A DNA stretch of 36,715 bases from a virus: positions 1-36,715 of IMG/VR virus record IMGVR_UViG_3300009550_000029; one strand, given 5' to 3'. Position 1 is the stretch's first letter, and every line of letters starts with the position of its first letter. Under the pieces are notes generated by a model that was not told where the DNA came from, ran no database searches, and saw only the letters and a list, made by a program, of their open reading frames with translations. Shown here piece after piece: positions 15,487 to 27,560 of this stretch. A program made the position numbers and the translations under genes.

Positions 15487-17529
15487 TTACCAGTAGTTGG
15501 ATTTGCGGCGGCCACCGCCGGCGTCTTCCGGGGTGTCATCGCCACCGAACAGGTCGCTTTGTTTGAGCTGGGCCTCAAGCTGATCCCAGCGTTCATCTTT
15601 CCAGGTGTGCAAGCGCAGGCTGTAGGCCGCGTGCAGGGCGTAGACTTCGCAGTCAGCCGCCTCAATGGGCTGGCCGGGCTTGTCGTGCCACACGAGCTTG
15701 CCGCCCATGCGGGCGTTGGGCGCTTTGATCACACCGGTGAGTTGCTCGTAGTAGTCGTCGCGCACGTTGGTGTACCAGTGCATGCGGCCTGGGCCTTCGC
15801 CTTGCAGGCTGAGCCTGCCGCCTTCACCGAAGATCAGGTCTTTGGCTTTGTGGGTGCCTACCTGATACACCTGCAGGCCGAATTTCGCGGCCTTGGTTTT
15901 GTGGCCGTTCTTCTTGCTGTAATCGGTTTTTCGCGGGGCGCTGAATATCTCGCGACGGCCGTAATCGTTACTGCTGCCCTTGATGGCCATGACGCCGCGC
16001 TTCTGCCGGGGGCGTACCCAGTTGTACACCTGCTCGGTGCTGTGGCCGCCGGAGTCGATACTGATGGCACGCGGGATCATCCTGAATCCGTCCGCGCTTT
16101 TGCGGGGGGTAAACAGGAAATCATCAAGCTCTTTCCAAACCGGGTCGCTGCTATCGGTGGTGCTGACCTTGGCGAAGAATTCGCCCCAGTAGATCAGCCA
16201 GCCTTCCATGCCCCTGCCCCAGGCACGCAGCACAACGGCAACACGATCGCGCTGCACATCGATGCCGGCGGTGAGGATCAGGCCACCATGGGGCACCACC
16301 AGTTCGGGGTAATCTTCCGCGCGTTCGCGCAGGGCGTCCGCGTCTGGTGCCGCTGTTTCGTATTCGAAGGTGCGGCCCAGCTTCTGGTTGGTGAACGTGA
16401 TCAGGCCGGAAAGGTCGCCTTTTTCAGCCAGGTGATCCGCTTTCAGCTTGTCGCGCACCACATCCGCGAGGCTGGTACCCGGTACGCAGGCATATAGCTC
16501 GCCGAGCTGGGTGAAGCCAGCCTTTCCATGGAAGGGCCGTGTTGGAACCCAGCCACATAGCGGGTCGCCCTGCTCCACCGCGTTGTACACGGTGTCGCGG
16601 ATGTTGGTTTGTCGCTGGTGATCATCCCAGCCGCTGCCACAGCCCGGGCAGCAATACACGGCGGTATCCGGCATGGCGCGGCCGTACACTTCGTGCACTG
16701 GGGCTTCGTCATCGGCATCCAGCCAGCTGACGTTTTCCCATGCCAGTACATGGCTCTCTTCGCATTCGTGACACACCACCGGCAGCACCCGGCAATCGGA
16801 TTCACGCACGCGGTGTTCCGTTTTGCTCAGGTCCTTAATGGTTGGGGTGCCACCCACAATCAGCTTGCTGCCGGGGTAGCGTTTCAGCCGCTCTTCCAGC
16901 AGGCCGATCGCATCCCCCTGCCGCTTCACATCCACGCTGGGATCGTCGGGTTCTTCAACTACACCCGCGCCCACCGAGCTGGTGGACCTCACGTTGCCGG
17001 GGCTGTTGGAACCAACCAGTTTCAGGAAGCCGCCCGGGAAGGTTTTCAAATCCCAGCGATTGCCCGCCTTGCGGCTGGTGGTCACATCGACCACGCCTTT
17101 CATGGCAGGGGTAGCGCTGAGCGCGGGCACCAGCTTTTCATCGTGAAAGGCCTTGCCGTCTTTCTCTTTCGCGAACAGCACCATCAGCGGTGCCGGGTGG
17201 CCGTCAATGCGTTTGGCCAGGTACCCGATGAGAAAGTAAGTCCAGCCCAACTGGGCGGCTTTCATCAGGTCCACTTCATCCACGCTGGTGTCATCCAGCG
17301 CCGCGGCGACGCCCAAGAAATAAGGCGAATAATAAAAGTCGTACAGCCCAGCCAGATCACCGATGGTTTCCGGCAGGTGGTAGTGTTCCTGCATCCATTG
17401 CGCTGTCGGCACATGCCGACGGGGCCGGAATTTACTCGACGCCCTCAGTAAGACCTTTCGCAGCGTCGCCTGCAAACTCGCCAATTCGCTCAATTGCAGG
17501 TTCAACGACATCGCTAAGTGTTGCGGCAT
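15487..17529 (-). CDS. Terminase large subunit, GpA family
   Basis: About 680 residues if started at ATG 17529; a TTG three bases earlier and an ATG at 17511 are alternatives, and all overlap the small-terminase end by 80-100 bases. The ATPase region carries the degenerate P-loop typical of GpA (KAAQLGWTYFLIG) and an acidic VVEEPDDP around the Walker-B position. A zinc-binding pair (VCHECEE ... CCPGCGSGW) lies in the middle. The C-terminal nuclease shows AGIDVQRDRVAVVLRAWG and ISIDSGGHSTEQVYNW. It cuts concatemers and drives DNA into proheads. Confidence 0.92.
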   Translation of the reverse strand: MPQHLAMSLNLQLSELASLQATLRKVLLRASSKFRPRRHVPTAQWMQEHYHLPETIGDLAGLYDFYYSPYFLGVAAALDDTSVDEVDLMKAAQLGWTYFLIGYLAKRIDGHPAPLMVLFAKEKDGKAFHDEKLVPALSATPAMKGVVDVTTSRKAGNRWDLKTFPGGFLKLVGSNSPGNVRSTSSVGAGVVEEPDDPSVDVKRQGDAIGLLEERLKRYPGSKLIVGGTPTIKDLSKTEHRVRESDCRVLPVVCHECEESHVLAWENVSWLDADDEAPVHEVYGRAMPDTAVYCCPGCGSGWDDHQRQTNIRDTVYNAVEQGDPLCGWVPTRPFHGKAGFTQLGELYACVPGTSLADVVRDKLKADHLAEKGDLSGLITFTNQKLGRTFEYETAAPDADALRERAEDYPELVVPHGGLILTAGIDVQRDRVAVVLRAWGRGMEGWLIYWGEFFAKVSTTDSSDPVWKELDDFLFTPRKSADGFRMIPRAISIDSGGHSTEQVYNWVRPRQKRGVMAIKGSSNDYGRREIFSAPRKTDYSKKNGHKTKAAKFGLQVYQVGTHKAKDLIFGEGGRLSLQGEGPGRMHWYTNVRDDYYEQLTGVIKAPNARMGGKLVWHDKPGQPIEAADCEVYALHAAYSLRLHTWKDERWDQLEAQLKQSDLFGGDDTPEDAGGGRRKSNYW

Positions 17530-17920
17530 CAATAGTGATGCCGTGCTCCTTTTCCAGTGCCTGGCGCAGACGCTCTACCGCACCGCGAATTTCACGGTTC
17601 GCATAGCCCGCCCAATTCGTGATTGCCTGGGCAGCTTCTTCAGCCAGCACCAGCAATCCCAGTTTTTCGTTATAGGTCAGCCGACCTAGCGCCGCCTTCA
17701 CCTGAGCTTCCTCAGTTTTGGCCGCCGCCAGATCCGCTTGTTTCTCACCGCCCCGCCCTGCCGCGTGGGTGCGCAGGTGGTCGCAGTAATCACGCAGCCA
17801 CTCAGCATAAGAGCCATCGCGGCGCAGGTTTCCATCAGATGCATGCTTGCTAGCCGCCTGCTGGCTAATACCAACCAGCCGCGCGAAGCCAGAAGCCGTT
17901 GCTTGTGCATCAAGATCCAT
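17432..17920 (-). CDS. Terminase small subunit-like (Nu1-type) DNA-binding protein
   Basis: 162 residues from ATG 17920; an in-frame TTG 12 bases upstream is possible. Residues ~10-40 form a helix-turn-helix (FARLVGISQQAASKHASDGNL) like the winged HTH of Nu1 that recognises cos or pac sites. A helical, alanine-rich centre (AAAKTEEAQVKAALGRLTYNEKLG) fits an oligomerisation region. It overlaps the large-terminase start by about 100 bases, a known arrangement. The family assignment is by HTH plus location. Confidence 0.72.
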   Translation of the reverse strand: MDLDAQATASGFARLVGISQQAASKHASDGNLRRDGSYAEWLRDYCDHLRTHAAGRGGEKQADLAAAKTEEAQVKAALGRLTYNEKLGLLVLAEEAAQAITNWAGYANREIRGAVERLRQALEKEHGITIDAATLSDVVEPAIERIGEFAGDAAKGLTEGVE

Positions 17921-22235: not shown

Positions 22236-22832
22236 ATGGCCAGCAAGAAATGCAAAAGCTGCGGAAACGTCATAGGTAGCCGCGCCAGACAATGCCCCAA
22301 CTGCGGGCAGCCGCAAACCACAGGAATAGCCAAGCTCGGCCTGGCGCTCCTTCTTTTCATTGTGGTCACCGCCCCATTCACACTGCTCAACGATGAAACG
22401 CCTACACCACCACCTCAAACGGTTAAATCCGAGAGAGCGACACCGCCCACCCAGCAACCCCAACCAACTGAAAAGCCAAAGCGCAAGATCACCAGCTTTG
22501 CCCACGCAAAGGCTGTGTGCCCAAACGATTTGAAGTGCCTCCACGAAGGCTTGATCGCTGACTTTGGCAGCATCTGCAAAAGCTGGGTCAAACTCGAAAC
22601 AGACAGGGAATACACGGCCTCCAGCGAAGGACTGCCAAAACGAGTTTTCCACTCTTCTGATCCCGTAACCAAGAAGCACCACTGGCGCCTTCTCGGAGAC
22701 GCCTTCTACGACACACGCACCGGCGTCCGGTACTGGTATGGGTGCGAGGTAAATACAAGCACAGGAAAAATCGTCGGAATTGCCCCCCCTGTTCCAGTTG
22801 GAACAAAGCGGCGCTACAAGCAATTCAACTAG
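22236..22832 (+). CDS. Zinc-ribbon membrane protein, inverted moron between primase and helicase
   Basis: 198 residues on the plus strand, opposite to both neighbours, with AAAGGAGGAAGG upstream of ATG 22236. An N-terminal zinc ribbon (CKSCGNVIGSRARQCPNCG) is followed by a membrane helix at about residues 32-51 (AKLGLALLLFIVVTAPFTLL). Next comes a proline/threonine-rich linker, then a ~110-residue domain with cysteines (AVCPNDLKCLHEGL, ICKSW, YGCEV). The antisense frame of 237 residues is treated as a shadow. Probably a self-standing lysogeny gene; function unknown. Confidence 0.78.
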   Translation: MASKKCKSCGNVIGSRARQCPNCGQPQTTGIAKLGLALLLFIVVTAPFTLLNDETPTPPPQTVKSERATPPTQQPQPTEKPKRKITSFAHAKAVCPNDLKCLHEGLIADFGSICKSWVKLETDREYTASSEGLPKRVFHSSDPVTKKHHWRLLGDAFYDTRTGVRYWYGCEVNTSTGKIVGIAPPVPVGTKRRYKQFN

Positions 22833-22834
22833 CA

Positions 22835-23890
22835 TCAAGCCGCCTCCCCAACCGGTGCCGGCGGCAGATGCACTACCCCGCCCAACTCAGCCTGGCAGGC
22901 TGCAGTAGCATCCTGCCCCGCACGCTTCCCGGTTTTCGGGTTCAGCTTGTCGTTATCCGCCATCCAGACCGGCGTCTTTCCGGCCAGCCACCCGGCCTCA
23001 AGGAAAGTCTTGCCGACAGTCAGCATATTGCCCGAATCAAAGCAGGCAACCACCGGCCAGCCACTCCCCAACTCAAACGCCGAGGCAGAAGTGGCATAAC
23101 CCTCTGAAAACCCCACAAGCTCAGCCCCCTCCAGAGAACCAAACAAATGGAAACAGCCTTTCTTCCGGCCATACTTGGGAAACAGCTTTGTACCCAGCCC
23201 ATTGATGGACTGGATCGCCCACAGCTTTCCATCAATATCGACCGTCGGCACCGCAATAGTTTCATGAGAGAACCGCAGAAATGAAATATGGGCGGGCTTG
23301 GGCCTGGGCAACGTGCGGAAGAATTCCCTCACAGCCATACCGGTAAGAACCTGGCATCGACACTCAGCATCATCAATAACCAGCAACACCGCCCGCTTAA
23401 AAAACCGAATGCCGTGCGCCCCAACGCCCTTTCTGCCAAGGTACGGCGAACTGCCAAGGGCATGGGTGTGCTCTTGCCATATCGCCCAACAAGCATCACT
23501 CACGGCTTCCTGCATGGCCAGGTGTCGCTTTTCATCCCTCTCGACTTCTGCCTGCCGATCTTTTCGACGCTGTTCATGCTCCGCCCGCAGAGTGCGCTTT
23601 TCCTCTGCCGTAAGCTCCCGCCTGGGCCGCTGCCACCCACCCTGCACAGCCAGCTTAATCAGCGTACCAATGGTGTAATGCCCAGCCTTTGCGCTACGCC
23701 AAGTGTTTTTACACGCTCCCTTGTCGTAGCTCTGCCCTTGTCGGCTCCAACCATCGAAAGGGTCAAAGCCCGCCTCGCCATATTCATCCTTCAACGCACC
23801 GGCGATGGAGAACCATGTATCCCGGTCGCAATCCGCACTGACATACAGCAACGCCTGCTCCGCCTCATGCATCGGCAACGGCTCATTCAT
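22835..23890 (-). CDS. Primase with PriCT-2 and Toprim domains
   Basis: 351 residues. The ATG at 23890 overlaps the end of the CII-like gene by eight bases. The N-terminus (DCDRDTWFSIAGALKDEYGE ... GWSRQG, then CKNTWRSA, YTIGTLIKLA) matches the PriCT-2 primase C-terminal domain. A charged helix follows, then a Toprim-type domain with VGFSEGYATSASAFELG (conserved Glu) and WMADNDKLNPKTGKRAGQDA (DxD position). It makes primers for phage replication and works with the DUF5906 helicase encoded next. Confidence 0.85.
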   Translation of the reverse strand: MNEPLPMHEAEQALLYVSADCDRDTWFSIAGALKDEYGEAGFDPFDGWSRQGQSYDKGACKNTWRSAKAGHYTIGTLIKLAVQGGWQRPRRELTAEEKRTLRAEHEQRRKDRQAEVERDEKRHLAMQEAVSDACWAIWQEHTHALGSSPYLGRKGVGAHGIRFFKRAVLLVIDDAECRCQVLTGMAVREFFRTLPRPKPAHISFLRFSHETIAVPTVDIDGKLWAIQSINGLGTKLFPKYGRKKGCFHLFGSLEGAELVGFSEGYATSASAFELGSGWPVVACFDSGNMLTVGKTFLEAGWLAGKTPVWMADNDKLNPKTGKRAGQDATAACQAELGGVVHLPPAPVGEAA

Positions 23891-24389
23891 GCGTCACCCC
23901 GCCAAACTGCTTCGCCACTTCCACCAAGCTAAACCCGGATTGAACAAGGCGGTACAAACTCTTTTCCAACACCGCCAGTTCATCCTGATCCACCTGCCCA
24001 TCGGCCAGCGCATCACGCACATCCGTGGTCATCTTGCCCACCCGGCTCACCAGATCGGCCAGCCCGCTGAACAATTCAGATTCAGCAGAGTCAGCAACCG
24101 TTGGCATAGGCAGCCAGACACAACCGGTAATCAAGGAAATCGCATCGAGGATCTGTTCCACATCCCCATGATCACGCGCGTATTCCGTAATCAGCTCGAA
24201 CTGCTGCAAGGTGGGGTTACGGTCAACGTCGTTGAGGTTCAGGTTGTTATAAAGCGCCTGCGGGTGCAGGTCATAGGTAGCGGCGATTTTCTTAAGCCCC
24301 TGCCGCTTGGCTGTCATGGCCAGGGCTGTTTTCAGGTCGGGCAGCGTATTCTGAGCCAGCTCGACGCGGCTCATGCGTGTTGTATTCAT
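23883..24389 (-). CDS. CII-like regulator, phage CP76 family
   Basis: 168 residues, ATG 24389 with GGGAGAGAG upstream. The segment QGLKKIAATYDLHPQALYNNLNLNDVDRNPTLQQFELI is the hallmark of the phage regulatory CII family, with a HTH recognising promoters and the conserved NPTLxQFE stretch. In related phages it influences the lysis-lysogeny choice. It is the second gene of the leftward PR operon, after cro and before the replication genes, the same place as cII in lambda, although the protein family differs from lambda CII. Confidence 0.83.
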   Translation of the reverse strand: MNTTRMSRVELAQNTLPDLKTALAMTAKRQGLKKIAATYDLHPQALYNNLNLNDVDRNPTLQQFELITEYARDHGDVEQILDAISLITGCVWLPMPTVADSAESELFSGLADLVSRVGKMTTDVRDALADGQVDQDELAVLEKSLYRLVQSGFSLVEVAKQFGGVTHE

Positions 24390-24455
24390 GTTGAAACTCT
24401 CTCCCGGGTTTCTCTAACTATCGGCAGCGAACAACCGTAAAGTTGTCGCCGCTGG

Positions 24456-24647
24456 TCAAGCAGCTTGCCGCGATGCGGGGAAAGGTTTGATTTCCTCTGC
24501 CCGGTAGCCGGTATCGGTCTCATAGACATAGACCTGACGCCCTACCCGCACTGCTTTGCTGACTCCGCCCTGCGTCAGCCCCAACAATTCTGCCGCGCGC
24601 GCCTGACCATGCTCTTTCACGAAGTCAGATAATGGTTGCCTGTTCAT
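24456..24647 (-). CDS. cro: Cro-like repressor
   Basis: 63 residues, GAGGTGAACCT before ATG 24647. The helix-turn-helix is FVKEHGQARAAELLGLTQGGVSKAV, ending in a beta-strand pair (RQVYVYETDTGYRAEEIKPF) as in small lambda Cro. It is divergent from the CI gene and is transcribed from a promoter overlapped by operator sites. Expected to compete with CI at OR and OL and favour lysis. Confidence 0.85.
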   Translation of the reverse strand: MNRQPLSDFVKEHGQARAAELLGLTQGGVSKAVRVGRQVYVYETDTGYRAEEIKPFPASRQAA

Positions 24648-24672
24648 AGGTTCACCTCGTACTTACACGAAC

Positions 24673-24700
24673 ATAATACCTAAAGTAGTGACTCAATCAA
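24673..24700 (-). promoter_or_regulatory. PR-like promoter for cro and the early leftward genes
   Basis: Minus strand: TTGATT (24695-24700), 16-base spacer, TATTAT (24673-24678). One operator-like site (24677-24687) covers the -10 region and another (24701-24711) abuts the -35 box, so repressor binding would block it. Confidence 0.7.
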
Positions 24701-24735
24701 TACCCTGGGTTGTTGTTATAAAATTACTAACGGTA
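24677..24735. promoter_or_regulatory. OR-like operator cluster, three sites
   Basis: Three 11-bp near-palindromes of outline TACC-N3-GGTA: TACCTAAAGTA (24677-24687), TACCCTGGGTT (24701-24711) and TACTAACGGTA (24725-24735). Centres are at 24682, 24706 and 24730, exactly 24 bp apart. They span the divergent CI and Cro promoters, with the rightmost site overlapping the CI promoter and the other two the Cro promoter. The same motif recurs at 25889-25946. Confidence 0.78.
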
Positions 24736-24739
24736 ATAA
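24710..24739 (+). promoter_or_regulatory. PRM-like promoter for the CI repressor
   Basis: TTGTTG (24710-24715), 18-base spacer, TAATAA (24734-24739). Predicted transcription starts about at 24746-24747, the A of the CI start codon, so the message would be leaderless, like lambda PRM. Operator site 24725-24735 overlaps this promoter. Boxes are only moderately good. Confidence 0.5.
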
Positions 24740-24746
24740 TTCGGGA

Positions 24747-25469
24747 ATGGGAACAAGAAACCTCACACCAGAAGAGACAGCTGAAAGCCAACGGTTGAAA
24801 GCTATCTTCGAAGCAAAAAAGAAAACTCTCGGCCTCAGCCAACAGGCCGCGGGCAATGCTATGGGCATTAGCCAGGCGGCAGTAGGGCACTACCTGAACG
24901 GCAGAAACCCACTAAATCTCAATGCCGCCCACCATTTTGCGGAAATCCTGAATTGCAGCATTAACGACTTCAGCCCGCGCCTAGCTGCCGAGGCCAGCCG
25001 CTACATGCTGCGCGAGCCCACTGGTAGCTACAACAACCTAGAAACCGCCACCCAACCACGCCAAACGCGCCTGGCCCCAATTGTAAGCACTATCATGGCA
25101 GGCAGCTGGGGTAGCGCTCCTGACATACACCCAGTCGGCCACGGCGAAGACTACGAACCGGTACCATCCGGCGCGTCTGATCATTCTTTCTGGATGCGAG
25201 TGAAAGGTGATTCCATGGTGTCACCGATACCAGCAGCAGACAGCTTTCCACCTGGCACTTTGGTCCATGTTGACCCGGAAATGCATTGGGAATATGGCGA
25301 TTATGTTGTCGCAAAGCTGGATGACAGCGAGGAAGCGACATTCAAGCAGATCGTTGAGGATGCTGGCCGCAGATACCTCAAGCCCCTCAACAACGCCTAC
25401 GGCCTGATTGCTATAAATGGCAACTGCCGAATTGTTGGAAAGGTAACGGAATACAAGAGAAAGCTATAG
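24747..25469 (+). CDS. CI-like prophage repressor (HTH + S24 self-cleavage domain)
   Basis: 240 residues. Residues ~15-70 form an XRE helix-turn-helix (LGLSQQAAGNAMGISQAAVG). The C-terminal LexA/S24 domain shows Ser156 in VKGDSMVSP and Lys200 in EEATFKQIV, with a likely autocleavage bond Ala118-Gly119 in STIMAGSWG. RecA-stimulated self-cleavage would inactivate it on DNA damage and induce the prophage. No Shine-Dalgarno precedes ATG 24747, in agreement with a leaderless message. It is divergent from cro across three operator sites. Confidence 0.92.
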   Translation: MGTRNLTPEETAESQRLKAIFEAKKKTLGLSQQAAGNAMGISQAAVGHYLNGRNPLNLNAAHHFAEILNCSINDFSPRLAAEASRYMLREPTGSYNNLETATQPRQTRLAPIVSTIMAGSWGSAPDIHPVGHGEDYEPVPSGASDHSFWMRVKGDSMVSPIPAADSFPPGTLVHVDPEMHWEYGDYVVAKLDDSEEATFKQIVEDAGRRYLKPLNNAYGLIAINGNCRIVGKVTEYKRKL

Positions 25470-25497
25470 AGGCCATAACAACAACCCCCCTCCGGCT

Positions 25498-25803
25498 CTA
25501 TTCGTAGAGGTTCCAGCAGTAAAGGAAATATTCATCCCTAAAGTCATCAACCACCCTCTTTTTCATTGCAGCGGTGCTGTATCTGTTTTCCTTGTAGGCC
25601 TTGACGATGATGGCAGACAACACTTCCTCGCCATCCGCAACCCCCATTAACTCCGACATCGCCGCCCCATCTTGCCGTTTGGTCATTACAGCTTCAGCGA
25701 TTGCTGACAGCCGAGTGCAAGTCTCTTGCCTGCTGAGATCCTCCTCAGCGCCCACCCGGCCCGCAGCGATGCATATAAAAAGAACGATCAATAACCTCAT
25801 CAT
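25498..25803 (-). CDS. Small secreted protein, candidate lysogenic-conversion moron
   Basis: 101 residues from ATG 25803 (GGGGG upstream); further upstream in-frame starts exist. A clear signal peptide (MRLLIVLFICIAAGRVGA) ends near residue 20. The mature part has two cysteines (QETCTRLSAIA and FLYCWNL) and the segment RYSTAAMKKRVVDDFRDEYFLYC, which resembles a family of small exported phage proteins of unknown role. It is convergent with the repressor gene and just left of the OL-like operators, so it may be expressed in the lysogen. Confidence 0.7.
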   Translation of the reverse strand: MMRLLIVLFICIAAGRVGAEEDLSRQETCTRLSAIAEAVMTKRQDGAAMSELMGVADGEEVLSAIIVKAYKENRYSTAAMKKRVVDDFRDEYFLYCWNLYE

Positions 25804-25888
25804 CACCATCCCCCACCAGTCCGAGAAAGAAAATAACCCCCGTAATTCTGCGTAAAACAACAAAATTCGGCAAATTCCGCATTTTTAT

Positions 25889-25946
25889 AACCCAAGGTAT
25901 TGACCAATAATAATACCTTGGGTAGTGTTTGCTCATACCCAAGGTA
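25889..25946. promoter_or_regulatory. OL-like operator cluster, three sites
   Basis: AACCCAAGGTA (25889-25899), TACCTTGGGTA (25914-25924, perfect palindrome apart from the centre) and TACCCAAGGTA (25936-25946) match the motif found between CI and Cro. Centre spacings are 25 and 22 bp. They flank and overlap a promoter for the rightward operon, so the same repressor would silence both early transcripts. Confidence 0.8.
25900..25928 (+). promoter_or_regulatory. PL-like early promoter of the rightward operon
   Basis: TTGACC (25900-25905), 17-base spacer, TAGTGT (25923-25928). Operator site 25914-25924 covers the spacer and -10 edge; the site at 25889 abuts the -35. The first gene starts 30 bases downstream. 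Confidence 0.62.
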
Positions 25947-25957
25947 GGAGAACAACC

Positions 25958-26200
25958 ATGGCCACAGTCCACATCCACCCCACTGCCGCCACACCGGCAG
26001 CCATCTACAAGCTGCAGCGCCAAACCGGCCTGGTCGCCGTTATCCACGGCACCAGCGCCCAGCTGATTCCCCACAGCCACTGGCTGGCCCGCAAAGGCAA
26101 TGCCCTGCCGCGCCACCAGCGCCGCTCTGCCGTGCCGGCCATCCAGCGCCTGAGCGCCCACCACCGTAATCACGGTGGCGACGGCCCCAGCGCGGCCTGA
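25958..26200 (+). CDS. First gene of the rightward early operon, unknown
   Basis: 80 residues from ATG 25958 with TAGGAG upstream. Basic and histidine-rich (VHIHPTAATPAAIYKLQRQTG, then LIPHSHWLARKG). No domain recognised. Its position directly after PL is that of small early host-takeover or antitermination genes in lambdoid phages, but nothing in the sequence proves a role. Confidence 0.65.
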   Translation: MATVHIHPTAATPAAIYKLQRQTGLVAVIHGTSAQLIPHSHWLARKGNALPRHQRRSAVPAIQRLSAHHRNHGGDGPSAA

Positions 26201-26213
26201 TCGGGTGACCACC

Positions 26214-26444
26214 ATGACCAGCATTCCAGCCCGCATCCACAACGCCCAGCGCGCCTTCAAGCGCCTACAGACCACCGCCGACATGGAGCAAGCCATGCTG
26301 CGCAGTGGCCGGTTGCTGGACCGCTACATGGCCGAACTGCCCGTCAGCAATCAAACGCTCACCGCCCGGGCCCACATCACCGAACAGGCAGACCAGTACT
26401 TGGCCCGCTGCCGCCGCAAACGCACAGGGAGTAACGCCGCATGA
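26214..26444 (+). CDS. Small helical phage protein, unknown
   Basis: 76 residues from ATG 26214, preceded by GGGTGACC. Almost entirely helical and basic (IHNAQRAFKRLQTTADMEQ, ITEQADQYLARCRRKR). Its stop overlaps the next start (ATGA), indicating coupled translation. Function not recognised. Confidence 0.62.
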   Translation: MTSIPARIHNAQRAFKRLQTTADMEQAMLRSGRLLDRYMAELPVSNQTLTARAHITEQADQYLARCRRKRTGSNAA

Positions 26445-26692
26445 GACTCACCATGCAGAACGAAAAGGAACTTCGCACCGCCATTCGCGGTACCGACAAA
26501 GGCGCCAGCAGCACCACGCTAATCCGTGTCCACGGCATCACCCTTGCCGTCGCCGTAAGCAAAAGCGTAGAAGCCACCACCGTGACCATCTACCCCGCCG
26601 CAGACCCGAGCCAGGTGATCTACCACGGCACAGGCACAGCGGGCGAATGCTACGCCGATGCAGCCGATGCTATTGAAGGGGCGGTGGTATGA
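26441..26692 (+). CDS. Small phage protein, unknown
   Basis: 83 residues, joined to both neighbours by ATGA overlaps. Beta-rich centre (TTLIRVHGITLAVAVSKSVEATTVTIYPA) and a short helix at the end. No known motif. Confidence 0.62.
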   Translation: MRLTMQNEKELRTAIRGTDKGASSTTLIRVHGITLAVAVSKSVEATTVTIYPAADPSQVIYHGTGTAGECYADAADAIEGAVV

Positions 26693-26994
26693 ACCTGCTT
26701 ACCGACAAGCTGAGCATGAATGACTACCAGCTCAATCGTGCCCGCGCCGAAATCATGCACAACCTGAACCTCGGGGTAGAGAAAGCGCTTCAGGGTGAGG
26801 CTGACCATACCCACGTGATCCTGCTCCGCCTGGACGGCATCTGGACAGCCTTCATGGGCCAACCACTAGGGCATCTTGCTCAACGCGCCACGACACTCAT
26901 TGCTGCTGCCCAGTACCACCGCATGGGCAGCCCTCACATCCTCACCGACGCCGGACGACAACTCACAGGCCTCACCACCGGAGAACCCGCATGA
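26689..26994 (+). CDS. Small phage protein, unknown
   Basis: 101 residues, ATGA-coupled on both sides. Helical N-terminus (MNDYQLNRARAEIMHNLNLG) followed by HVILLRLDGIWTAFMG. Conserved place before the dNMP kinase gene; no known motif. Confidence 0.62.
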   Translation: MNLLTDKLSMNDYQLNRARAEIMHNLNLGVEKALQGEADHTHVILLRLDGIWTAFMGQPLGHLAQRATTLIAAAQYHRMGSPHILTDAGRQLTGLTTGEPA

Positions 26995-27560
26995 AAATCA
27001 TCGCCTTCACCGGCCCCGGCGGCGCCGGCAAAAACACCGCTGCCGAAGCCCTTGGCACCGAGTGGCACACCAACGAAGTGGCCTTCACCGCCCCGCTGTA
27101 CGACATGGCAGCCGCCGCCTTGGGCCACACCCCCGAACAGATCAACCAGCTCAAGCAGCAGGGCGACAAAGCTATCCGCGCCATGCTGGAACAGCTGGGT
27201 GACGTGGTGCGCAACACCATCCGTCCGGACTACCTCATCGTGCGCCTGGTAGACACCCTGCGCGAACTGGAAGACAGCCAAGACACACCGGAACTGGCCG
27301 TCATCACCGACCTGCGCACCGAAGAGGAAGCCTACTGGGTGCGGGCCATGAGGGGCTTGGTGATCCACGTCAGCCGCCCGGAAGGGACCAGCGACAGCGA
27401 ACACAACACCAACCAGCCCATCACTTTTGCCCAGGGTGATCAGTACCTGCTGAACAACGGCACGGCAGAAGACCTGGGGAAGATCGCCTGCGCGATCGTA
27501 AAAGGCTGGATTGTTGCCAATTCACCCGCAGCCCAGAACCGGTTTCAGGGGGCAGCATGA
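26991..27560 (+). CDS. Deoxynucleoside monophosphate kinase-like protein
   Basis: 189 residues. The P-loop FTGPGGAGKNTAAEAL lies at residues 6-21. A lid-like region (QLGDVVRNTIRPDYLI) and a nucleotide/base-binding strand ELAVITDLRTEEEA follow, as in the phage dNMP kinase family that phosphorylates dNMPs for DNA synthesis. Starts in an ATGA overlap with the previous gene; its 3' end overlaps the end of the inverted gene 27545-28207 by 16 bases. Confidence 0.8.
   Translation: MKIIAFTGPGGAGKNTAAEALGTEWHTNEVAFTAPLYDMAAAALGHTPEQINQLKQQGDKAIRAMLEQLGDVVRNTIRPDYLIVRLVDTLRELEDSQDTPELAVITDLRTEEEAYWVRAMRGLVIHVSRPEGTSDSEHNTNQPITFAQGDQYLLNNGTAEDLGKIACAIVKGWIVANSPAAQNRFQGAA

Follow-up and report, generated by a model that had tools for sequence, protein, structure and literature searches.

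Phage lambda carries divergent cI and cro genes with three operators between them, and a second group of three operators at the opposite early promoter. The half-site in lambda is TATCACC, OL3 lies upstream of pL, and OR and OL are 2.4 kb apart. Another operator class, with the half-site AATACC and a 3-bp centre, is found in HK620 (AF335538). Among other lambda-like switches, the OL side departs from the three sites of lambda in 933W, described as having no OL3 (PMC3317979), and in N15/phiKO2, described with two OL sites (PMC4997575). In the parts of these two papers available to us, a third site downstream of pL is not reported for either. In this study, we analysed the immunity region of a whole virus record of 36,715 bases, referred to as the window. 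Its large genes match head, portal, terminase, tail, and integrase families of tailed phages, and no end repeats of 11 bases or more were found at its ends. The terminase (15487-17532) was closest to those of Pseudomonas phage KT1 (58%) and Marinobacter phage PS3 (46%), and these matches hint at a gammaproteobacterial host.

As shown in Table 1, cI and cro are divergent with three operators between them, and a second operator cluster is located at the opposite early promoter. The Cro protein belongs to the Pfam Cro family, and CI has a helix-turn-helix and an S24 domain. We interpret this region, with a probability of about 0.9, as the immunity cassette of a temperate tailed phage, which would work like the switch of lambda with operators of the HK620 class. 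Gene order, the three plus three sites, and the Cro and CI families are shared with lambda. An OL3 upstream of OL2, a detail of lambda that does not define all members, was not found in the window. A lambda-like OR/OL system had been proposed in the initial annotation. The homologous Cro, CI, and CII families, the lambda-like site positions, and the change of operators together with repressors in relatives all agree with this proposal, and at the sequence level a lambda-type CI/Cro switch appears well supported. CI contains a cleavage-site-like Ala118-Gly119, a catalytic-like Ser156 (GDSM), and a catalytic-like Lys190 (VAKL). A well-placed Shine-Dalgarno was not seen upstream of cI, and the gene is probably leaderless, as is cI of lambda. 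Primase-type genes lie beyond the CII-like gene. A zinc-ribbon ORF (22236-22832, plus strand) was observed between two minus-strand genes of this type, running in the opposite direction.

Table 1. Features of the immunity region in window coordinates; mismatches are relative to the motif TACCNNNGGTA.
Feature	Position	Strand	Sequence or product	Remarks
CII-like regulator	23883..24389	-	168 aa; Phage_CP76	outside the swapped cassette
Immunity cassette	24418..25957			no more than 18% of its length alignable in any of the eleven relatives
cro	24456..24647	-	63 aa	Pfam Cro family, E=5e-18
Predicted pR (cro)	24673..24700	-	TTGATT-16-TATTAT	consensus match only
OR1	24677..24687		TACCTAAAGTA, 1 mismatch	overlaps -10 of leftward cro promoter; centre about -16
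OR2	24701..24711		TACCCTGGGTT, 1 mismatch	abuts cro -35, centre about -40; about -41 from cI start codon
Putative cI maintenance promoter	24713..24740	+	TTGTTA-16-AATAAT	predicted; overlaps OR3
OR3	24725..24735		TACTAACGGTA, 1 mismatch	overlaps putative cI promoter; centre 17 bp 5' of cI start codon
cI	24747..25469	+	240 aa	helix-turn-helix and S24 peptidase
OL2	25889..25899		AACCCAAGGTA, 1 mismatch	abuts pL -35 TTGACC; centre -41
Predicted pL	25900..25928	+	TTGACC-17-TAGTGT	predicted start about 25935
OL1	25914..25924		TACCTTGGGTA, exact	reaches pL -10; centre -16
Third OL site	25936..25946		TACCCAAGGTA, exact	centre about +7; abuts Shine-Dalgarno AGGAG
First pL-operon gene	25958..26200	+	80 aa	unknown function

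The whole window was scanned for the 11-bp motif with at most one mismatch. Twelve matches were found, compared with a mean of 5.73 in shuffled sequences. Half of them form two triplets, with centres at 24682/24706/24730 and 25894/25919/25941, and the other six are solitary, as expected for background (about 5.5). The matches cluster at OR and OL only. All six centres reported in the initial annotation were confirmed, including the exact spacing of 24/24 at OR; the spacing at OL is 25/22. The statement that the same near-palindrome occurs six times holds if one mismatch is allowed, but exact copies are limited to two of the six sites (centres 25919 and 25941), and OR1, OR2, OR3, and OL2 each have one mismatch. 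Two triplets within 60 bp were present in the window, compared with none in 300 whole-window dinucleotide shuffles, and local shuffles gave three or more matches in 5 of 20,000 cases at OR and 0 of 20,000 at OL. Palindromes that arise by chance or from base composition in AT-rich intergenic DNA would be compatible with the four off-pattern sites and with the solitary matches at background frequency. The shuffles make this explanation very unlikely, and HK620 has annotated operators of the same class.

The relation of the OR sites to the promoters was as initially described, with OR1 over the cro -10, OR2 abutting the -35, and OR3 over the putative cI promoter. For pL, a consensus promoter scan ranked another candidate higher (TTTATA-16-AATAAT, start near 25918), and TAGTGT is a poor match for a -10. 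Despite this ranking, TTGACC was taken as part of pL because eight of the nine relatives in which the pL region was seen have TTGAC at the corresponding position. It had been claimed that the OL sites surround TTGACC/TAGTGT; this was correct for the site abutting the -35 and the site reaching the -10, and the location of the third downstream of the promoter had been missed. The positions of OR1, OR2, OL1, and OL2 relative to the predicted promoters differ by no more than about 1 bp from those in lambda. The annotated OL2 and OL1 of lambda are centred at about -41 and -17, compared with -41 and -16 in the window, if the lambda pL start is 35582, as we assume. OL2 and OL1, in opposite orientation, form a 13-pair hairpin (25890-25923) that scores as an intrinsic terminator, and a cI transcript reading through would include it. 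We did not retain it as a terminator, since two oppositely oriented operators account for the hairpin. A minus-strand ORF of 121 aa (25498-25863, phrog_2315; unknown function) was also found between cI and OL, where rex-like or exclusion genes are located in other phages.

We then compared the operator sequence with those of described phages. It had been considered unfamiliar, which proved wrong, since the AATACC-N3-GGTATT class is already present in HK620, mEpX2, Serratia OS31, and Erwinia EhrS_49. A novel specificity is ruled out by HK620, for which GenBank lists OR1-3 and OL1-3. Both the half-site AATACC and the 3-bp centre of this class were found in the window. The HK620 sequence contains AATACTACAGGTATT, AATACTCAGGGTATT, AATACCTTGGGTATT, and AATACCTACAGTATT, and the core of its OL2, TACCTTGGGTA, is identical to OL1 of the window. 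The OR spacing in HK620 (25/24) is nearly that of the window, the OR-OL distance is about 1.3 kb, and CI and Cro are about 41% and 40% identical, respectively, between the two phages. Unlike in the window, the annotated OL3 of HK620 is 22 bp upstream of OL2, in a stretch unlike the consensus; an N gene and a long nutL leader follow pL, and the CII and replication genes are annotated differently. Six further loci with a related CI, namely mEpX2, the Serratia and Erwinia phages, and the IMG/VR loci L035, L126, and L037, had AATACC-type sites at 24-25 bp spacing. By itself, the operator sequence does no more than add another phage group to the known HK620 class.

Ser45 of lambda CI and Ser28 of Cro contact base pair 4 (PMC5222340). 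The lambda-type loci have TCACC where the HK620 class has ATACC, and we compared residues with bases using an alignment of related phages and a half-site table, in which L143 was mixed and three loci gave no Cro. The position of Ala49 in lambda CI was occupied by His in the xTACC loci and by Ala, Gln, or Ser in the TCACC loci. At position 28 of Cro, the TCACC loci have Ser, and the residue in the xTACC loci is Gly, Cys, Thr, or Ile. Position 45 of CI was not a clean marker, with Ser kept in several xTACC loci. Because the compared sequences are few and many are closely related, the correlation rests on few independent events. Hall et al. (2005; cited in PMC4997575) reportedly described a similar relationship between the helices of Cro and its operators.

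Relatives were collected from IMG/VR. Ten contigs were found by the CII-like protein (L150-L159, 74-91% identity), and L001 was found by CI (CII-like protein, 59%). All share the gene neighbourhood with the window, and those with a visible OL have a third site a short distance 5' of the first pL gene, but they carry another cro, another CI DNA-binding domain, and other operators. The flanks and the cassette were compared by blastn over three segments. At least 95% of the left flank (22835-24417) aligned at 71-84% identity in L150-L159, compared with 19% in L001, and the alignments ended at 24415-24417 in the ten contigs. The right flank (25958-27500) aligned over 29-99% of its length at 69-88% identity in eight of the ten, with single stretches of up to 97% (L156, L158), and over 7% in L001; no blastn match to this flank was obtained in L152 and L157. 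The Cro of the window had no match in any of the ten contigs, and the alignable part of CI began only at residue 16 to 88, which differed between types. The protein of the first pL gene had 92-97% identical copies in five contigs found through this gene (L160-L164, four of which are the same as L154, L156, L153, and L158), and all five have other operators. According to these alignments, the close relatives form a natural heteroimmune series, in which the flanks are kept and cro, the CI DNA-binding domain, and the operators are exchanged. L159 (4492-7952, reverse complement) differs in having about 3.5 kb between CII and the first pL gene, compared with about 1.2-2.1 kb in the others.

The operator types of the relatives were identified by consensus scan, with patterns picked by eye and site counts made without the shuffle test run on the window. 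Sites of the form TTAGC-N4-GCTAA were found in L151, L153, L154, L156, L158, and L159, TGTAC-N5-GTACA in L150 and L152, TTAGC-N5-GCTAA in L001, and ACTAC/AATACC-type sites in L155 and L157. OR and OL sites change together with the CI N-termini and cro, and each type has a different sequence. This co-exchange of operators and repressors is seen directly in the sequences, as are the sites, the genes, and their geometry. The OR spacing was 25/24 in L001, 24/32 in L150, 23/25 in L155, and 25/14 in the TTAGC-N4 loci, compared with 24/24 in the window. It varies, and the lambda-like OR triplet is therefore not kept throughout the group. In L150 (3797-3900) and L001 (912-950), the third OR site overlaps or lies directly next to the likely start codon of cI (TGTACCCATGGTTCA; TTAGCAATTTGCTATGG).

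The comparison of OL leaves out L152 and L157, in which the first pL gene was not located. Three OL sites were present in the window, the six TTAGC-N4 loci, L150, and L001, and the upstream site was weak in L155. Their centres relative to the predicted pL start were -41, -16, and +7 in the window, -41.5 to -42.5, -16.5, and +3.5 in the TTAGC-N4 loci, and -50, -21, and +5 in L150. The window and two other operator types thus share a third site downstream of a called TTGAC promoter. For L155 and L001, the scan chose other hexamers, placing the third centre at -12.5 and -1 (runner-up in L001, -9), respectively, and these picks lend no support to a downstream placement. In L155, TTGACA is correctly positioned but has no good -10, and TTGCAT-17-TAATGT was noted by eye in L001. 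Since no promoter was called where one was expected, we claim no start-relative positions for these two. The third centre precedes the start codon by 19.5 bases in L155 and 18 in L001, similar to the 17 bases in the window. No site was found at 25870-25876 of the window, where an upstream OL3 was sought, and TAACCCCCGTA at 25839, 55 bp upstream of OL2, was only a weak candidate for it. We tentatively propose, as the less probable case, that in this phage group the third OL operator was relocated to where the pL transcript begins and has been kept there across several unrelated repressor specificities. If this is true, the topology of the CI loop would differ from that in lambda.

The third OL site may mainly act locally, with CI or Cro blocking the start of transcription or translation of the first pL gene and no role in looping. 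Its centre at about +7, directly 5' of the Shine-Dalgarno, is consistent with such a block, but a looping role leads to the same sequence expectations, and we consider the chance of a purely local role to be about even. Alternatively, the site may be a displaced OL3, which would pair with OR3 in a CI loop and help to lower cI transcription as OL3 does in lambda. The perfect palindrome, the similar location of a third site in most relatives, and the lack of a site at the upstream OL3 position in the window point in this direction. However, the site is on the far side of OL1 from OR, and the loop would therefore have to be arranged differently; we regard this role as rather doubtful.

In the lambda-type switch that we favour, CI dimers at OR1/OR2 and OL2/OL1 would shut both the leftward early promoter (cro, CII, and replication) and the rightward pL, and CI at OR2 is placed such that it could assist its own promoter. 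Cro would act on the same sites and, at OR3, oppose cI transcription. The helix-turn-helices of both proteins would read AATACC half-sites, as expected for the HK620 class. A dimer on the third OL site would cover the first transcribed bases of pL, near the ribosome site of the first gene, and would probably add to the repression of pL. Binding by CI and Cro, activation, promoter use, cooperativity, looping over about 1.2 kb, and SOS cleavage and induction are what the protein families lead us to expect.

The architecture and the operator class described here were known. What is new is the relocated third OL site common to relatives of other specificity, together with the natural series of cassette exchange. 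The group consists of phages with similar flanking genes and at least five repressor/operator sets. Comparison within this group makes it testable which parts of a lambda-type switch are conserved and what effect moving the third OL site has.
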